Positions 29,234 to 36,468 of a DNA stretch of 64,000 bases are shown piece after piece (position 1 is the first letter of the stretch; every line of letters starts with the position of its first letter). Source of the stretch: Marinicella marina (GTDB taxonomy: Bacteria > Pseudomonadota > Gammaproteobacteria > Xanthomonadales > Marinicellaceae). Made by a program: the position numbers and the translations under genes. The DNA lies in the NCBI RefSeq assembly GCF_030065545.1, contig NZ_JASJNC010000010.1, forward strand, positions 62,001 to 126,000. Reading direction: 5' to 3'. The notes beneath the pieces are model-generated. The model ran no database searches, was not told the origin of the DNA, and was given only the letters and a program-made list of their open reading frames with translations.

Positions 29234-29245
29234 GCGATTGTGGTG

Positions 29246-30568
29246 ATGCTGAAACTGATTGTTATTGGGCTGCTCACTTTGAGTGGTTTCAATGCCTTTG
29301 CCCAAGACACTCAAAAGGATGTTGACACTGAGCAAGCCGGAACTGATATTCAACAAGATGATTGGGGTGATGACTGGGGCGATGACTGGGATGAGGAGCC
29401 ATCAGCCTGGCAACACGCTGGCTTTCTTGAGTTGGCCTATGGTGATCGATTGGACAGCGATCGATTGTTTGCTCGTCAGCAGGTATTGAGTGAATTTAGG
29501 TGGCATCAGGAACTTGAGTATGAACATGATGCTTTCAATTTTAATTGGGCACATGATGTTTGGTACGATGATGTGTTGCAAACATCACAATTTGATTTGC
29601 GTGAGCTCAATGTGCAGTTTTCAAAATTCGGTCAAACTGATTTCCAATTAGGCCGCCAAATCAGCACTTGGGGCACCGGTGATTTACTGTTTATCAATGA
29701 CTTGTTTCCGAAAGATTGGGTGTCGTTTTTTGCAGGGCGTGATGACAATTACCTCAAGGCACCAGCTGACGCATTACGCATCACCAGCTATTTCGATATC
29801 GCCAACGTGGATTTAGTCGTAACTCCGAAAGCTGAACCAGACCGCTTTATCAATGGCGAACGTTTTTCGCTGTTTTTTCCCTTGCGCTCATCGCAAGTGG
29901 GGGGTGGTGAAGTTATCAATCCGAAAAACCCTTCAACAACAGAAATTGCCTTGCGGTTATTCAAGAACATCAACGGCCATCAGTTCGCACTGTATGGTTA
30001 TCATGGCATCGAAAAATCACCCACTGGTATCAACCCCAATGGCGATGCCTTTTTTCCTCAGAAAAATGTTTTTGGTGCCAGTTACCAAGCGGCTTTGGGC
30101 ATAGGCATATTTAACTTGGAAATAGGCCATCATCAAGCCAGAGAAGACCGCCAAGGTAACCAAGCATTGATTCCTAATTCACAATGGCGAGGCTTGGTCG
30201 GGTATAACATGGAATTGGTCAAGAAGTTGAATTGGGGTTCGCAGATTTACCTGGAACACACCGACAATCACGTTACGCTGATAAACAATTCATTCAACCC
30301 GGAATTTGAGCCAGAACAAAATCGCTATGTCATCACCAATCGTTTGACCTACCAAGCGATGCAAGACAAGCTCACATGGTCTTTGTTCGTTTTTTACTCA
30401 CCCACCGATGAGGACAGTTATTGGCGACCATCGGTCAACTACCGGCACAACGACCAATGGCAATTCACCCTGGGCGGTAACTTATTTACAGGTCAAGATA
30501 ATCACACCTTCTTTGGTCAGTTTGAAGATGCCAGCAACTGGTATACCCGCATCCGTTACCAATTCTGA
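29246..30568 (+). CDS. Predicted outer-membrane beta-barrel protein
   Basis: The roughly 440-aa exported protein has a signal peptide ending near FNAFAQD, an acidic tryptophan-containing linker (DDWGDDWGDDWDEE, about residues 38-51) and then amphipathic beta strands to a terminal aromatic (RYQF), the classical barrel-assembly signature. It fits DUF1302/porin-like barrels that accompany RND plus LolA-like genes. ATG 29246 is preferred; a GTG at 29240 is in frame. It is the third gene of the operon and probably the outer-membrane exit or acceptor component. Confidence 0.8.
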   Translation: MLKLIVIGLLTLSGFNAFAQDTQKDVDTEQAGTDIQQDDWGDDWGDDWDEEPSAWQHAGFLELAYGDRLDSDRLFARQQVLSEFRWHQELEYEHDAFNFNWAHDVWYDDVLQTSQFDLRELNVQFSKFGQTDFQLGRQISTWGTGDLLFINDLFPKDWVSFFAGRDDNYLKAPADALRITSYFDIANVDLVVTPKAEPDRFINGERFSLFFPLRSSQVGGGEVINPKNPSTTEIALRLFKNINGHQFALYGYHGIEKSPTGINPNGDAFFPQKNVFGASYQAALGIGIFNLEIGHHQAREDRQGNQALIPNSQWRGLVGYNMELVKKLNWGSQIYLEHTDNHVTLINNSFNPEFEPEQNRYVITNRLTYQAMQDKLTWSLFVFYSPTDEDSYWRPSVNYRHNDQWQFTLGGNLFTGQDNHTFFGQFEDASNWYTRIRYQF

Positions 30569-30668: not shown

Positions 30669-30845
30669 ATGAGTAGCTTGTTCAGCGAACTGAAACGACG
30701 CAATGTGTTTCGGGTCGGAACAGCATATCCAGTCAGTGCCTGGCTGATTGGGTGTTGGATGGCATCGATGCACCCACTTCTCGTTGCTTCACCGCACATC
30801 GGAGATGATGATTTCATGTGCATAAATCTCACAGGCAATAGGTGA
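30669..30845 (+). pseudogene. Remnant of an ELKRRNVFRVG-type membrane protein
   Basis: A 58-codon ORF starts MSSLFSELKRRNVFRVGTAYPVSAWLIG, which matches the conserved N-terminal membrane anchor of a large family of CadC/cyclase/TPR-type proteins in related gammaproteobacteria. After WLIG the reading frame diverges; the +2 frame continues VLDGIDAPTS, the expected family continuation, so a frameshift occurs near 30750 and the rest of the gene is gone. Its stop TGA overlaps the ATG of the first tandem paralogue. It is probably non-functional. Confidence 0.6.
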
Positions 30846-31624
30846 TGTTACTCAGGCGCATCACACAACATGTTCAAAACCAAAACTGGTTCGCCGTCTT
30901 TATCGACTTCCTGATCGTAGTAGTGGGTGTCTTTATTGGTATCCAAGTGGCTAATTGGAATGAAACCAGGCTGGAAAACCAACTTTCTGCTGACTTCACG
31001 GAACGATTGAGGGATGACATCTTTGAGGAAGCTTGGGATTTTGAATACATGATTGAGTACTACACCGATGTGCAACAAAACGCTGAAAGGGTTCTAGCTG
31101 ATTTGGAATCGGGTAAACAGCTCAAAGACATTGATTTGGTGATTGCGGCTTATCGGGCATCTCAGATCAATATCATCACCAGACGCCGGTCTACCTATGA
31201 TGAACTGGTCTCAATCGGCAAGATGGACCTCATCAAAGATCAGTTACTCAGAGACACCGCCATCGCTGTGTATGAGTTTCCTTTTTATGACTCCATTTAC
31301 ACCAGTGGCTATGAGTCTAAATACCGAGAAATATTCCGCATGCACATCCACAGTGAAGTGCAAATGGCATTGAGTATTCACTGTGGTGACAAAAATGTTG
31401 AGCCACTCGACTATCAAGGCATCATTGATTCCATAGACTACCCATGTGATCCTTTATTAAATGAGGACTTGGTTGCTGATGCAGCTGCTACCATCAGAAC
31501 GCATGAATTGTTTTTGCCTTACTTAAGGCTGAGGTTGGCTCAGCTACAAGCCAGCTTATACAGTCTGAAAAATTATTACCCAGAGTTAACTGATAACCTC
31601 AAGAAATTCAGAGGAGCCAACTGA
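30845..31624 (+). CDS. DUF6090-like membrane-anchored protein, copy 1
   Basis: This is the first of five tandem paralogues (259 aa). Residues 1-40 (LLRRIT, then FIVVVGVFIGIQVANWNE-like segment) are nearly invariant across the set and form a single N-terminal membrane anchor with basic residues on the cytoplasmic side. The remaining ~215 residues are helical, presumably periplasmic, and share only the core STYDELVSIGKMDLIKD...LRD. Cysteines at 180 and 201 differ in position from copies 2, 4 and 5. ATG 30845 is used; a GTG at 30842 precedes it. No function is known; I believe DUF6090 is the family name. Confidence 0.8.
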   Translation: MLLRRITQHVQNQNWFAVFIDFLIVVVGVFIGIQVANWNETRLENQLSADFTERLRDDIFEEAWDFEYMIEYYTDVQQNAERVLADLESGKQLKDIDLVIAAYRASQINIITRRRSTYDELVSIGKMDLIKDQLLRDTAIAVYEFPFYDSIYTSGYESKYREIFRMHIHSEVQMALSIHCGDKNVEPLDYQGIIDSIDYPCDPLLNEDLVADAAATIRTHELFLPYLRLRLAQLQASLYSLKNYYPELTDNLKKFRGAN

Positions 31625-32355
31625 TGTTACTAAGAAGAATAACCCAACACGTCCAAAACCAAAATTGGTTTGCCGTATTTATCGATTTCATCATCGTTGT
31701 GGTCGGTGTTTTTATTGGTATTCAAGTGGCCAATTGGAATGAGGCGCTGAGGGAAAAGCAAGCAGAAAAGGTGTATCTCGAGCGCATGCATGAGGACATT
31801 AAATTTGCACAAGCTTTTGTCGAAGAATCAATCAGGCGTCGAATTCGAGATTTTGAAGCAAGTTTAGTCATGATTGAAATCATGAATGAAGACGGCAGTG
31901 AGTTAACTGATGAATACATTGAGTGTGCGCTTCCATCTTCAATCAATATCTTGATTGATCTGCCATTTTTGAACACCATCAAAGAGTTATTGGAAACTGG
32001 GAAAGTTAACATACTGGATGATGCTGCATTACGAAATGGCATACTGGAATTACAAAATAGAAGTGAACTATTGACTCGTTTTCAAGACCTGACTCTGAGC
32101 TCAATTATCAACATCACAAATGAGTTTTCAAATTCTATCAAGCAGCGAGCCAGTAGAGGAGATGCAGATGAAATAAGATTGGTTCGTCATTGCAATTTGA
32201 AAGCATTACATGCCAATAATCGATTCATCAATGCCATCAGTGAAAATATGGACATTGCCGATGCATTCATCAATAAAAGACTAATTCCTTGGTCTGAACA
32301 GATTGAAAAGCTGCATCAATTAATCGATCAATCACTTAACTTGAGTCACCCATAA
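31624..32355 (+). CDS. DUF6090-like membrane-anchored protein, copy 2
   Basis: The 243-aa second paralogue overlaps copy 1 by 1 bp (TGATG). The anchor is identical to copy 1 except for single substitutions (FLIV to FIIV). The helical C-terminal part contains the shared core FLNTIKELLETGKVNILDDAALRN and cysteines at 101 and 190, a spacing echoed in copies 4 and 5. Coding density and overlap imply co-translation with copy 1. Confidence 0.8.
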   Translation: MLLRRITQHVQNQNWFAVFIDFIIVVVGVFIGIQVANWNEALREKQAEKVYLERMHEDIKFAQAFVEESIRRRIRDFEASLVMIEIMNEDGSELTDEYIECALPSSINILIDLPFLNTIKELLETGKVNILDDAALRNGILELQNRSELLTRFQDLTLSSIINITNEFSNSIKQRASRGDADEIRLVRHCNLKALHANNRFINAISENMDIADAFINKRLIPWSEQIEKLHQLIDQSLNLSHP

Positions 32356-33123
32356 ATGCTTTTAAGAAGAATAACAAAACACGTCACCGAGCAAAACTGG
32401 TTTGCGGTATTTATCGATTTTATCATTGTAGTAGTCGGTGTTTTTATTGGTATCCAAGTGGCCAATTGGAATGAGGCCAGGGTGGAAGCCGAACGGGAAC
32501 AAGAGGTGCTTATAGCAATACTTGATGACCTAAAGCTTGATTTAACTATGTTGGAATCAGCATCAGCCATGGCAAAAATTAATATAGACACTTCAAACTA
32601 TATGCTTGAACAAGCTGGTTTTATCCCTTTAGATAAAATTTCCATACCTGTTGTTAATTCATCATTAATTGGTCAAGAATTACTTTTATCACCCCACGAA
32701 TTAATTCCTGAAGATCGAAAAAACCAACTCTGGAAACTGGTGAGTGTACATTTTTATCCCATACAATCCAATACAGCTTTCAGCTCTTTGATTGCTGCTG
32801 GTGATTTAAAGATTATTTCAAACCAGGACCTCATTAGTAACCTACAAAGCTATACACAGCATTGGAATTCATTGCGAGATTCAAATGTAACTACCTATAA
32901 AAAGTTTCGTGACCGAACTATTTTTGTTGGTCAGGAATTTGGCCTGAGTCCATTTATTAAAATTCCAGAAAAAGATTTAATTGGCATGATACAGGACAAT
33001 CCCAAACTCAAGGCGGTGCTCAGAACATTGCTTGAATACACTGTGTTACATAAAGCACAGTTTGAACAAACTAGTAATCAAACATTGAAATTGATCGATA
33101 AAGTAGAAAAGGAAATTCGATAA
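32356..33123 (+). CDS. DUF6090-like membrane-anchored protein, copy 3
   Basis: The 255-aa paralogue starts directly after the copy 2 stop (TAAATG). The N-terminal 40 residues are conserved (MLLRRITKHVTEQNWF...). The C-terminal domain is helical, with the core TAFSSLIAAGDLKIISNQDLIS, but it is the only copy with no cysteine at all, so a disulfide proposed for the others cannot form here. Confidence 0.8.
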   Translation: MLLRRITKHVTEQNWFAVFIDFIIVVVGVFIGIQVANWNEARVEAEREQEVLIAILDDLKLDLTMLESASAMAKINIDTSNYMLEQAGFIPLDKISIPVVNSSLIGQELLLSPHELIPEDRKNQLWKLVSVHFYPIQSNTAFSSLIAAGDLKIISNQDLISNLQSYTQHWNSLRDSNVTTYKKFRDRTIFVGQEFGLSPFIKIPEKDLIGMIQDNPKLKAVLRTLLEYTVLHKAQFEQTSNQTLKLIDKVEKEIR

Positions 33124-33124
33124 G

Positions 33125-33868
33125 ATGCTACTTCGTAGAATAACCGAACACGTTAAAGACCAAAACTGGTTTGCTGTTTTTCTGGATTTTCTGATAGTGG
33201 TCGTTGGGGTGTTTATTGGCATCCAAGTGGCCAATTGGAATGCTGAGCGACAGAATCAAGCAAAAGCAGAGTTTCTGGTTGATCGATTGTATGAAGAGGT
33301 CAAAGATGTTGAAGTTAAGTTACAGATGTATATTGAAACCCATAAGAATATCTTAAAACAACGAACTCAATTTGCTTTGGCTGTTCAAGATAAGCAAGCA
33401 TGCAGCAATCAAATTGACAAAATGAAGGAGTCGGTGCTGTCAGTGGGCGACTTTCCACCACCAAGATTTTCACTGCCCATTGCTACTCAAGCATTGAACA
33501 CCGGTGAACTGGCCATCATCACTGCAGACACCCTCAGAGATGAAGTGCAAAATACCACCGATGAAATGCAGTTTTTATCCCGACAATGGCAACGTTACAT
33601 CAAAACCGTTCAGGAAGTAGAAAAGCTGATCAATACACAATCAGGCCTGGCCATTAACTCAGGTCGAGACAAACCCCTTTACTCGACTGAACCTTATTCA
33701 CTCGATCGTTATGAATTATTGTCAGTGGAGAAGCTCTGTAATAACACGGAAATTATTGGCTCACTGTCTGGCGTAGAGGTCTTACAGCAAATTTATGTGG
33801 CTTATATGCTAGAAATACAAACAAGATTGAATCAATACTTGAACACATTAAAGGGTTACCAGAGCTGA
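33125..33868 (+). CDS. DUF6090-like membrane-anchored protein, copy 4
   Basis: The 247-aa paralogue starts one base after copy 3 ends. The anchor is conserved, with WNAER replacing the WNE of the others. The shared core appears as ATQALNTGELAIITADTLRDE. Cysteines at 93 and 205 match the spacing in copies 2 and 5. A coiled-coil tendency is visible in the first 60 residues after the membrane span. Confidence 0.8.
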   Translation: MLLRRITEHVKDQNWFAVFLDFLIVVVGVFIGIQVANWNAERQNQAKAEFLVDRLYEEVKDVEVKLQMYIETHKNILKQRTQFALAVQDKQACSNQIDKMKESVLSVGDFPPPRFSLPIATQALNTGELAIITADTLRDEVQNTTDEMQFLSRQWQRYIKTVQEVEKLINTQSGLAINSGRDKPLYSTEPYSLDRYELLSVEKLCNNTEIIGSLSGVEVLQQIYVAYMLEIQTRLNQYLNTLKGYQS

Positions 33869-33912
33869 GATTAAAGTTAATTTTATGAATAAAACATCAT
33901 CTTTAGATAATC

Positions 33913-34653
33913 ATGCTACTAAGAAGAATCACTAGACACGTCACTGAGCAAAACTGGTTCGCCGTCTTTATCGACTTCATCATCGTAGTAGTTGGTGTAT
34001 TTATTGGTATCCAAGTGGCCAATTGGAACGAAACACAAAACAACAAAAAAGGCATGGTTGCTGCATTGGAACGCCTTAACCGAGAAGTGAGTCAAAACAT
34101 CAGCAGCATTGATAAAATATTAGATCATTACCAAGCAAATAACAGCGACATGAGTGCAGGGCGTGAGTCATTGGATACTTGTACTTATTCGGCAGAAGGT
34201 CAGGCGGCATTAGAAAGGTTGTTGTTTGATTTTGTTGAAGATGTTCAACCTAATTTTGTGACTGTTGTGGCCGATCAGTTGGCTGCTCAAAACAGTTATC
34301 AAGTGCTGTTATCAGTTGAGCTCAGAGAGGGGTTTGGTGATTACATCGCTGACATTCAAGAGGAGGAAGAGCAACTGACCAGTCATTATAATAATATGTG
34401 GGCTCACCACATTAATCGGCACCCCTTTGTTGATGCGTATTTTTCCAATGATGTCAGTTCAATTCAAGATTATTCTGGTTGGGGCTTTAGGTTAGACAAG
34501 CCTTTCGAAGAGGTGTGTAAAGATGCCTCTTTTAGAAATCGGTTCATAAACACCATGGGCTTTTATACATCGATTAATCATCGTTTAATTGATTTTAAAG
34601 TCAAGGTTGAAGCTTTTCAGCAGTTGTTAAAAGTGGCACTTGAATCGCAATAA
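33913..34653 (+). CDS. DUF6090-like membrane-anchored protein, copy 5
   Basis: The 246-aa last paralogue is separated from copy 4 by 44 bp rather than tightly abutting, so it may have its own translation signals, though no clear Shine-Dalgarno is seen. The anchor is conserved (MLLRRITRHVTEQNWF). Cysteines are at 90 and 202. The core is more diverged (VVADQLAAQNSYQVLLSVELREG). Function unknown. Confidence 0.8.
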   Translation: MLLRRITRHVTEQNWFAVFIDFIIVVVGVFIGIQVANWNETQNNKKGMVAALERLNREVSQNISSIDKILDHYQANNSDMSAGRESLDTCTYSAEGQAALERLLFDFVEDVQPNFVTVVADQLAAQNSYQVLLSVELREGFGDYIADIQEEEEQLTSHYNNMWAHHINRHPFVDAYFSNDVSSIQDYSGWGFRLDKPFEEVCKDASFRNRFINTMGFYTSINHRLIDFKVKVEAFQQLLKVALESQ

Positions 34654-34686: not shown

Positions 34687-35043
34687 ATGCAAAAAAACCA
34701 CTTAATCATATGGCTATTGGCCACCTTTTTGATCATTTATCACACCTTTAAAATTTATGCTGGCTTGGTGTCCGAAGATGATGCTGCCGCCGCCGTTTTA
34801 AGTTGGTCTTATGAAAATTCAGTGCGTTTGTGGCTTATTTTTTCATTGATGCTGGTGATCATGTTCAAGCGCGTGGGATTGGTCTCTATGTGGCTGGCTA
34901 TTTTTACTTTGATTGGTTTTCTGTATGCCAACTTGTCAGGCCTCAATAGTTTGCTCGGATACGCTGCTCCACTGAAGGAGTTAATCATACCGGTCTTGTT
35001 GACTTGGGTTTACTGGCACAACGCCCGTATGTCTCATCAATGA
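34687..35043 (+). CDS. Small four-span membrane protein (hypothetical)
   Basis: The 118-aa protein has about four hydrophobic segments (LIIWLLATFLIIYH, LWLIFSLMLVIMF, MWLAIFTLIGFLYA, LIIPVLLTWVYW) joined by short loops. It follows the five-paralogue array by 33 bp on the same strand and ends before a bidirectional terminator, so it may be the last gene of that operon. A functional link to the paralogues is inferred only from position. Family not recognised. Confidence 0.7.
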   Translation: MQKNHLIIWLLATFLIIYHTFKIYAGLVSEDDAAAAVLSWSYENSVRLWLIFSLMLVIMFKRVGLVSMWLAIFTLIGFLYANLSGLNSLLGYAAPLKELIIPVLLTWVYWHNARMSHQ

Positions 35044-35058: not shown

Positions 35059-35091
35059 AAAAAAACCCGCTTAATGATTGGCGGGTTTTTT
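35059..35091. terminator. Bidirectional rho-independent terminator
   Basis: AAAAAACCCGC pairs with GCGGGTTTTTT (35081-35091) around a 10-nt loop. The A-run and T-run on opposite sides allow termination in both directions. It lies between convergent genes ending at 35043 (+) and 35111 (-). Confidence 0.9.
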
Positions 35092-35110
35092 GTGTATTAA
35101 TCAACCGAAA

Positions 35111-36340
35111 TTACTTGTGTATTCTGAATTCAGCGTAACAGTTGTTAGTCACGTATAATTGACCTTGTCGGTTGATGCCCCAATTACCTTCGCAGGGGTA
35201 CTTGCCTTTGCTGATTTCGCGTTTGAATTCAACATCACGAAAGGGCCCATCGGTGTCACATATTTTGACTTTGTTCTTGCGTGATTTACACTTGATGTTG
35301 AATGATTCACGTTGGGGAGGCTGGTTAACAATGCCGGCATTGCCAGGGTAAGTCATGAACCTGGCACGACAACCATCTTTGACCCAAATGCCGTTGGTAT
35401 CATAACCCCAGCGTTGGTCACAGCTGGTGTTGGATAACTGTTGAACAAACTCCACGCGTCCAGAGGTATCGGCACGACAGGTTCGAACTTGGCTGTAATT
35501 AGATTCACAAACCACTTCGCGGCCTTGGTTATTTGGGTAGTTGGGTCGATCATTACGAGATTCGTATTCAACCACTTGAAAGCGGGCATGGCAGCCATTT
35601 CTTACCCAGATGCCATGACTTGAATAGCCCCAGTTTCCGCGACAAGAATCACGGTATGAATTACCCAGTTCCTCGACCAACTCAATACTTTGCAGTTCAG
35701 GCACCTGGCAGTGTTCAATGTTAGTGCCAAAACTGCGACATTCAACCACGCCATTACCATAGTTTGATCCGGAGCCGTAGTTATTTCGCATGATCAGAAA
35801 ATCAGCTTTACAGCCATTGGCGACCCAAATTTCATTGCGGTTGAAACCCCAGTTGCCGCGGCAGCTGCGGTTACTTAATTGGTGAATCAGTTGTACCTCA
35901 GCGCCTTGTAGGTTGGTGGCACAGGTTTGACGGCGGTAACTGTATGATTCACAGCGCACCACATCATCCTCTTGGCCATAATAATCTTGATAGCGGTCTA
36001 TTTGAAATTCACCGCGACAGCCATTGGTTACCCACACGCCATAATAATCATAGCCCCAATTGCCTTGGCAGGAGTTGTAGCCGATTTGTCTGATCAGCCT
36101 GACACCACCGTTGGTGTCGGCACGACAGTGCTGTCTTTGGCCGCGGTTTGATTCACAAACAAAGCGATCACCGCGGTTGTAATTGGTATTGCCCCAGCTT
36201 TTGCTGTTCTTACTGGTGTTGAACTGTTCCTCGGTTGAATTATTTTCTGTTGAGAGTTTGGCCAGTTCTTTTTTTTCTTCATCAGCAGCAAAAACCAACC
36301 CTGAAAATAAAACCAGTCCCCAAATCAAATGCTTTTTCAT
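35111..36340 (-). CDS. Secreted protein with five DUF3011 repeats
   Basis: The 409-aa exported protein has a signal peptide (MKKHLIWGLVLFSGLVFA) and five tandem units of about 60-70 residues. Each has VxCESN...CRA, then SCxGNWGYxxxGIWVxNGCRAxF, the DUF3011 pattern with four conserved Cys and a GNWG turn. The fifth unit is shorter and more diverged. The repeats probably form small disulfide-bonded beta folds; function is unknown, and binding of a surface ligand is speculation. GGAG 7 bp before ATG 36340 decides the start over an ATG further upstream at 36355. Confidence 0.85.
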   Translation of the reverse strand: MKKHLIWGLVLFSGLVFAADEEKKELAKLSTENNSTEEQFNTSKNSKSWGNTNYNRGDRFVCESNRGQRQHCRADTNGGVRLIRQIGYNSCQGNWGYDYYGVWVTNGCRGEFQIDRYQDYYGQEDDVVRCESYSYRRQTCATNLQGAEVQLIHQLSNRSCRGNWGFNRNEIWVANGCKADFLIMRNNYGSGSNYGNGVVECRSFGTNIEHCQVPELQSIELVEELGNSYRDSCRGNWGYSSHGIWVRNGCHARFQVVEYESRNDRPNYPNNQGREVVCESNYSQVRTCRADTSGRVEFVQQLSNTSCDQRWGYDTNGIWVKDGCRARFMTYPGNAGIVNQPPQRESFNIKCKSRKNKVKICDTDGPFRDVEFKREISKGKYPCEGNWGINRQGQLYVTNNCYAEFRIHK

Positions 36341-36468
36341 AATTAACTCCATCAATGAATGCCAATTATTTTAGCCCCATCTGCTGGGTTGTGGGGACTA
36401 GTTTGTAAACAATTTTAAAGTTAGCCTTAACTTGTTGTTGCTTGCTAGTCAGTGAGGAATTTGATTAT

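Follow-up and report, generated by a model that had tools for sequence, protein, structure and literature searches.

How do adjacent genes come to encode proteins that share an almost invariant N-terminus and little else? This question is raised by five consecutive genes of the DUF6090 type in Marinicella marina, which lie in a stretch of 64,000 nucleotides (assembly GCF_030065545.1, contig NZ_JASJNC010000010.1, positions 62,001 to 126,000), here called the window. Comparison with related genes from other genomes leads us to interpret the array, with moderate confidence, as a probably co-expressed and horizontally exchanged repertoire of inner-membrane-anchored periplasmic binding modules that recombine at the anchor. 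The five genes and their anchor modules are located as follows; the anchors of genes 2 to 5 were delimited by alignment and DNA comparison of the five genes (pLDDT, predicted local distance difference test).

30845–31624, plus strand: gene 1, DUF6090, 259 amino acids (Pfam 35.3 bits; AlphaFold2 pLDDT 93.6)
30845–30961, plus strand: anchor module of gene 1, 39 codons, with a short N-terminal helix and a membrane helix with invariant G28
31624–32355, plus strand: gene 2, DUF6090-like, 243 amino acids (Pfam 22.9 bits; cut-off 23.5)
31624–31740, plus strand: anchor module of gene 2
32356–33123, plus strand: gene 3, DUF6090, 255 amino acids (Pfam 29.4 bits)
32356–32472, plus strand: anchor module of gene 3
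33125–33868, plus strand: gene 4, DUF6090-like, 247 amino acids (17.6 bits, under the cut-off; invariant anchor residues present)
33125–33241, plus strand: anchor module of gene 4
33913–34653, plus strand: gene 5, DUF6090, 246 amino acids (Pfam 29.5 bits; AlphaFold2 pLDDT 87.8)
33913–34029, plus strand: anchor module of gene 5

The anchor module and the outer domains

The initial annotation described five genes with a constant anchor and a diversified outer domain, and this description holds. In an alignment of the five proteins, 34 of the first 39 residues are invariant, N206 is the only invariant column thereafter, and the outer domains, defined as the parts after residue 44, are 16–25% identical. 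Genes 1 and 2 overlap by 1 base pair (bp), genes 2 and 3 abut, and gaps of 1 bp and 44 bp separate genes 3 and 4 and genes 4 and 5, respectively. By the curated Pfam cut-off of 23.5 bits, genes 1, 3, and 5 are members of DUF6090 (PF19578). Genes 2 and 4 score below it, and gene 2 gets 23.8 bits, above the cut-off, in a genome search with neighbours in frame. DUF6090 is a family name without an assigned function, as stated in the initial annotation and in agreement with Pfam and with a literature search that found no paper on DUF6090 or PF19578. Only one other copy with this type of anchor was found at a convincing E-value in the window's genome; it is encoded on contig C17, and its anchor is 72% identical to the query.

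The family sample consisted of the window, 15 stretches (14 from genomes of the same genus and one from the window's own genome), and 69 loci, which are the best 80 of 155 matches after merging; the sample leans towards gene 1. Metagenome bins are the source of many loci, the pairs compared are not independent of one another, and classes were assigned from record titles. Removal of duplicates left 304 distinct anchor-bearing open reading frames (ORFs), 282 of which encode 200–330 amino acids; 279 proteins were used for comparison of the outer domains. The same gene architecture recurs at other loci, with up to 17 anchor matches in one of them (L089), and the window array is therefore not a product of chance. 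At least two full genes are present in 53 of the 70 loci counted. All 180 consecutive array pairs are encoded on the same strand, 166 of them with a gap within 20 bp, and the commonest gaps are −4 bp (94 pairs) and −1 bp (50 pairs).

Computation supports the anchor as a constant 39-residue N-terminal module consisting of a short helix and one membrane helix, and positive charge prevails ahead of this membrane helix in the family proteins. Among the 282 proteins, G28 is conserved in all, W15 in 278, R4 in 275, Q34 in 274, and W38 in 272. In type IV pilin-like proteins, the prepilin cleavage site has a glycine before the hydrophobic helix. Such a site is not found here, as 278 of the 282 proteins have W15 just before position 16; position 16 itself is F in 162 and T in 91. 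In the window, the anchor DNA (123 bp, 41 codons) is just 74–85% identical between genes, and 11–20 of the 41 codons differ only synonymously per gene pair. The anchor protein sequence is thus held by selection, and the copies have not been freshly homogenised. Gene conversion of the 5' ends, as proposed in the initial annotation, is borne out in so far as reshuffling at the DNA level occurs in the family (see below), and it fails for the window array itself, where the silent anchor differences rule out a recent event.

A second anchor type (FFRKIRKNLL..GEILLVVIGILIALQINNWN), which is presumably typical of Bacteroidota, was observed in five proteins near the proteobacterial anchor type (L065:8098-8895, L066:1368-2942, L111:3372-8741). 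The best local matches of these proteins to outer parts on the other anchor are 21–35% identical.

Beyond the anchor, the short core motif that had been noticed in the five genes proved to be real and family-wide, reading approximately T-[YF]-x-E-L-x-S-x-G-x-[LI]-x-[LI]-I-x-[DN]-x-x-L-R in the 282 proteins. The number of cysteines after residue 44 is even in 264 of the 279 proteins (Poisson expectation 145); exactly two are found in 157 (expectation 72) and none in 81. In the window, genes 1, 2, 4, and 5 encode two outer cysteines each and gene 3 none. Even cysteine numbers fit disulfide-bonded domains, which would be located outside the cytoplasm. According to confident AlphaFold2 models, the proteins of gene 1 (modelled from 70 sequences) and gene 5 (from 60 sequences) consist of helices throughout, one of which is long and extends from the membrane segment far outward. 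Fold searches of the PDB with both models and of BFVD with the gene 1 model yielded no match at E 0.001 or better, and a sequence search for solved structures found no credible one (best E 0.27). The gene 5 model has weak, non-significant matches to the four-helix-bundle sensor structures 2asr and 4z9i (E 0.25–0.43), which are not among the 50 matches listed for the gene 1 model.

Selection on the outer domains was estimated from 122 cross-genome pairs whose outer identity is 0.55 or more. Of these, 64 are unsaturated, and their ratios of nonsynonymous to synonymous substitution rates (dN/dS) range from 0.06 to 0.33 with a median of 0.16. The outer domains of cross-genome relatives are thus under purifying selection; positive selection between them was not seen. 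This contradicts the fast diversification of the outer domains that had been assumed initially, for which purifying selection had been named as the contrary outcome.

Kinship and recombination of the outer domains

The nearest relative of an outer domain is found in another genome for 269 of the 279 proteins, at the same locus for 7, and elsewhere in the same genome for 3. When the genes that had recruited their loci into the sample are left out, the corresponding numbers for the remaining 197 array genes are 188, 6, and 3. An outer identity above 0.5 occurs in 2 of 784 same-locus pairs and in 177 of 37,664 between-genome pairs. Siblings within family arrays, whose outer domains have a median identity of 22%, are thus no more alike than members of different genomes. 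Because the nearest outer relatives are located in other genomes in 269 of 279 cases, the window genes do not appear to be local duplicates that have diverged in place, contrary to the initial annotation. Active avoidance of redundancy is not needed as an explanation, since the same-locus rate is near or slightly under the between-genome rate.

Single-linkage clustering of the 279 outer domains resulted in 99 clusters at an identity of 0.35 (54 singletons) and in 153 clusters at 0.45 (103 singletons). Judged by record titles, Alphaproteobacteria and Gammaproteobacteria occur together in 19 of the 50 clusters that have more than one member at 0.45. Outer-domain relatives of gene 5 are found in a Marinicella bin (0.74) and in a Marinicaulis bin (0.57). 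Related genes seldom have related neighbours, either downstream (4 of 67) or upstream (3 of 64). Presence is patchy: among 185 genomes sampled from the class, 4 carry anchor genes, and one of these 4 is the window's.

The histories of anchor and outer domain were compared by the proportions of synonymous (pS) and nonsynonymous (pN) differences. In 19 of 22 cross-genome pairs with an outer pS below 0.5, the anchor pS is above the outer pS; the anchor pN is higher in 11. As the anchor is silently more diverged than the outer domain in these 19 pairs, outer domains are likely to have been recombined onto other anchors. The pattern points to movement of outer domains between genomes with recombination in or just after the anchor DNA. 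In a pair from loci L089 and L123, anchor and outer pS are 0.51 and 0.08, respectively, and nucleotide identity rises from 47% to 90% near codon 20; the similar tract spans the outer domain, the anchor of the next gene, and part of the next outer domain. A pair from two Kangiella genomes has an anchor pS of 0.52 and an outer pS of 0.14. The opposite pattern, near-identical anchors with diverged outer parts, is found in the pair L089_12248/L123_3765, and in four sibling pairs anchor DNA that is 96–99% identical is combined with outer identities of 0.23, 0.25, 0.27, and 0.47. Codon agreement at identical residues, standardised by amino acid, is 0.61 for the anchor and 0.41 for the outer domain within arrays, 0.54 and 0.39 with other loci of the same genome, and 0.45 and 0.36 between genomes. 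Of 157 genes that have distant siblings and a close relative in another genome, 122 have a best sibling anchor that is nearer than the anchor of the relative.

Mini-ORFs with about 18 first anchor codons (..QNWFAV) and no outer domain were observed at L105:6776-8358, where several are consecutive, L085:884-1096, and L123:5451-6876. By reading, the anchor start is followed by a repeat-like, partly palindromic element, and the break point is near the recombination break of the L089/L123 pair. Two more small families, in which one hydrophobic segment is followed by an 'EVRQN'- or 'QVRQN'-like stretch, are present in or near arrays (L079, L086, L094, L097, L117, L122, L127, L132, L133, L135, L136, L141). 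They are mostly found in loci with Alphaproteobacteria titles, and one of the families is well conserved between loci.

Turnover at the chromosomal site and neighbouring genes

The array is located between a gene for a protein of 442 amino acids (29240–30568) and a gene for one of 414 amino acids (35111–36355). The number of array genes at this site differs within the genus: ten in genome G002, five in the window, one each in G014 and G003, and none in G009. In G006, a broken 3' remnant resembling gene 1 adjoins the 442-amino-acid gene, and in G008 two genes, one cut by the contig end, stand beside it. G011 has two genes beside the 414-amino-acid gene and none beside the 442-amino-acid gene, and in G005 and G012 no array gene adjoins the latter within the stretch examined. 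Contig ends truncate the sequence in G015 and G016; G010 and G013 carry the 442-amino-acid gene and are outside the comparison. In line with the initial annotation, copy number varies between species: the 18 genomes compared within the genus contain between 0 and 12 anchor matches each. At its other loci, the genus has 26 anchor-bearing proteins, including the C17 copy, and only two of them closely resemble the product of a window gene. L071 resembles gene 5 (0.74), and a contig-end piece of 193 amino acids in L069 resembles gene 3 (65% over 149 outer residues). L078, a Lysobacterales bin with relatives of genes 1 and 3, is outside this count. Computation supports that array content differs between species, mostly gene by gene. 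In four Marinicella loci (L064, L065, L073, L077), genes for DUF6090 proteins, for a tetratricopeptide repeat (TPR) protein described below, or for both adjoin glyQ-glyS (by reading), a second favoured place.

The immediate flanks of the array contain the following features, with names of flank genes resting on reading of the sequences unless a profile match is given.

30669–30775, plus strand: relic of a TPR gene (5' end; 'ELKRRNVFRV' family of membrane TPR proteins), which reads MSSLFSELKRRNVFRVGTAYPVSAWLIG, followed by a frame shift after which similarity stops
34687–35043, plus strand: gene for a small hydrophobic protein of 118 amino acids, 3' of the array, without Pfam match
35060–35092, strand unassigned: possible terminator hairpin AAAAAACCCGC..GGCGGGTTTTTT, read by eye

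The 118-amino-acid gene is also present at the array-free site of G009 and is therefore part of the flank, not of the array. The putative hairpin is not in the output of a hairpin scan with a loop limit of 8. A promoter scan found fewer sites than in shuffled sequences and was uninformative.

The TPR cluster comprises 35 proteins, mostly of 600–740 amino acids, that start like 'ELKRRNVFRV' and have membrane segments (by reading) and TPR repeats; some members are fragments or are without this start. Of 73 loci, two of which (L104 and L112) overlap, 18 encode a member of the cluster at most four genes away from an anchor gene, and in 13 the two are directly adjacent. In 20 genomes, 27 of 73 genes with a TPR-type N-terminus are located within 6 kb of an anchor gene, all on the same strand, with about 0.9 expected by area; 9 of these genomes had been picked because a neighbour of this kind was present. 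In the remaining 11 genomes, 4 of 29 TPR genes are near an anchor gene, all in one genome (expected 0.35). Within the genus, 6 of 12 TPR genes are near anchor genes on the same strand (by reading), and the two TPR-family matches in the window genome are both beside the single C17 copy. The relic upstream of the window array was matched at 30687–30752 in a tblastn search of the whole window with 13 family members (best E 2.5e-6), its shifted-frame piece comprises positions 30740–30775, and G002 has two TPR-family genes at the corresponding place. In the genus, both TPR and anchor genes are present in 7 genomes, only anchor genes in 3, only TPR genes in 3, and neither in 5. This is not a convincing link by presence and absence; co-location is the stronger sign.

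In L063, a gene for 310 amino acids (L156:12297-13226) is located between array and TPR genes. It encodes a serine hydrolase-like protein (by reading) starting with MSLFKELKRRFVFRS, which resembles the N-terminus of the TPR family; this is possibly another swap at a conserved 5' end.

Possible function of the repertoire

In the proposed model, the constant 39-residue anchor is joined to one of many old outer-domain types. As the computation supports, these pass from genome to genome and end up on other anchors, with recombination inside the anchor DNA or immediately behind it. The abutting genes on one strand would be co-expressed, and the proteins would be oriented N-in/C-out with a periplasmic outer part. 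The anchor may be invariant because it docks all members on a common membrane partner or on each other; candidate docking residues are G28xxxG32, D21, and Q34, which are part of the membrane helix or close to it. In some Gammaproteobacteria, the partner is perhaps the neighbouring membrane TPR protein. Each outer domain would bind a different external ligand.

Several observations weigh against this model. The mean sibling anchor is nearer than the anchor of the cross-genome relative in only 91 of the 157 genes, and because of this, swapping of outer domains appears to be frequent, not universal. The 22 pairs are not independent and some derive from metagenome bins; the strongest of them, L089/L123, could involve a mis-binned contig. 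The outer part is more diverged than the anchor in 3 of the 22, including the only one that involves a gene of the window (gene 3/L125; anchor pS 0.41, outer pS 0.46). Turnover within the genus is incomplete, since types resembling genes 1, 3, and 5 recur at the chromosomal site in G006, G008, and G014 as a relic, a partial gene, and a gene, respectively. The TPR neighbour is not obligatory, since 3 of 10 genus genomes with anchor matches are without a TPR-family match; a TPR gene is within 6 kb of an anchor gene in only 9 of 20 other genomes, 8 of them preselected. Finally, a search for an association with defence genes had been proposed initially, and no convincing match to PADLOC defence profiles was obtained for nine proteins, five of them from the window (best E 0.028).

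The process that appears closest among those described is recombination among tandem type VII secretion immunity genes. The EsaG, TipC, and TsaI arrays are described as rows of paralogues that are not identical and vary in copy number; conserved intragenic DNA blocks are recombination sites in EsaG and TipC, whereas TsaI proteins share about 75 similar N-terminal residues with little evidence of recombination (PMC9484751). Tandem non-identical paralogues and recombination via conserved blocks are also found here. In contrast to the type VII immunity arrays, sibling outer domains have only the low median identity given above and related outer domains occur in other classes, the constant block is a single-pass membrane anchor, and the window proteins have no Pfam match to another family above cut-off. 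A cognate toxin was not recognised by eye in the flank clusters common to at least three loci (485 flank proteins), with profile scans of selected neighbours only. The staphylococcal lpl genes are tandem lipoprotein genes of variable copy number that recombine via a conserved internal block of about 130 nucleotides, according to the same source (PMC9484751). As described there, their constant block is central and belongs to one species, whereas here an N-terminal transmembrane anchor is combined with apparent exchange across classes. Like integron gene cassettes, the arrays consist of single genes that can be exchanged, point the same way, and occupy a fixed place. They differ in that array gaps of mostly −4 or −1 bp would leave no room for attC sites, which are larger than such gaps. 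No integrase was noticed among the recurrent flank clusters listed, although no search was aimed at integrases.

Recognition-type diversity, as suggested in the initial annotation, is plausible. Tentatively, and with less than even confidence, we regard protective periplasmic recognition as the likeliest use, i.e. an immunity-like repertoire against incoming toxins or phages. Phage families gave weak matches only (best E 0.0033), and mobile carriers were not found, either in viral contigs with an alignment of the five proteins or in plasmids and phages with gene 3. The type VI secretion system (T6SS) sheath protein T6SS_VipA (PF05591) is encoded in 1 of 26 anchor-carrying genomes, which is not the window's. 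This scarcity of an own type VI system is compatible with an immunity that is directed against foreign attackers.

The chief alternative function, second to immunity-like protection, is sensing, which we consider rather unlikely. The outer domains would then bind a small molecule or envelope cue, and the anchor would signal across the membrane or to the TPR protein. Three TPR neighbours that were scanned show weak similarity to CadC (a membrane-bound regulator; NCBIfam), HilA, and TolB, and the weak match of the gene 5 model to 2asr concerns the periplasmic domain of the aspartate receptor (target-normalised TM-score 0.52, E 0.25). However, the CadC and HilA scores are far under the cut-offs, neither model has a significant fold match, and the TPR neighbour is often absent. 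Only about 20 residues precede the membrane helix, and a cytoplasmic output domain of the chemoreceptor signalling type is not present. Still less probable is an old envelope housekeeping family, whose tandem copies diverged by relaxed selection and whose anchor is a mere conserved membrane signal. The purifying selection on the outer domains, the single common core motif, and the recurrence of some gene types at one site in the genus would agree with this, but the nearest relatives are not the siblings, the anchor often has another history than the outer domain, only 2 of the 26 proteins at other genus loci are close to a window gene, and presence in the class sample is patchy. Recent tandem duplication with hypervariable outer domains and 5' ends kept alike by gene conversion would account for the higher codon agreement of anchors within arrays and for the four sibling pairs with near-identical anchor DNA, but it is very improbable given the silent divergence of the window anchors, the low outer dN/dS, and the fact that siblings resemble one another no more than proteins from different genomes do.

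Tandem arrays are commonly attributed to local duplication and divergence. Under the preferred model of a horizontally exchanged repertoire, neighbours are like random draws from a pool of 99 clusters, and a cleanly exchanged outer domain is marked by a measurable break at the anchor. The arrays thus provide a testable case of modular envelope-protein exchange across bacterial classes, with the TPR gene as candidate partner. It is doubtful, yet conceivable, that they represent a general display system of bacteria. The fixed docking module in the membrane would then also serve as the handle for recombination, and units would be acquired singly from a very large pool of periplasmic binding domains that is common to several classes. 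If so, in-frame joining to the local anchor and largely non-redundant co-display would give the bacteria a heritable, horizontally updated recognition repertoire.

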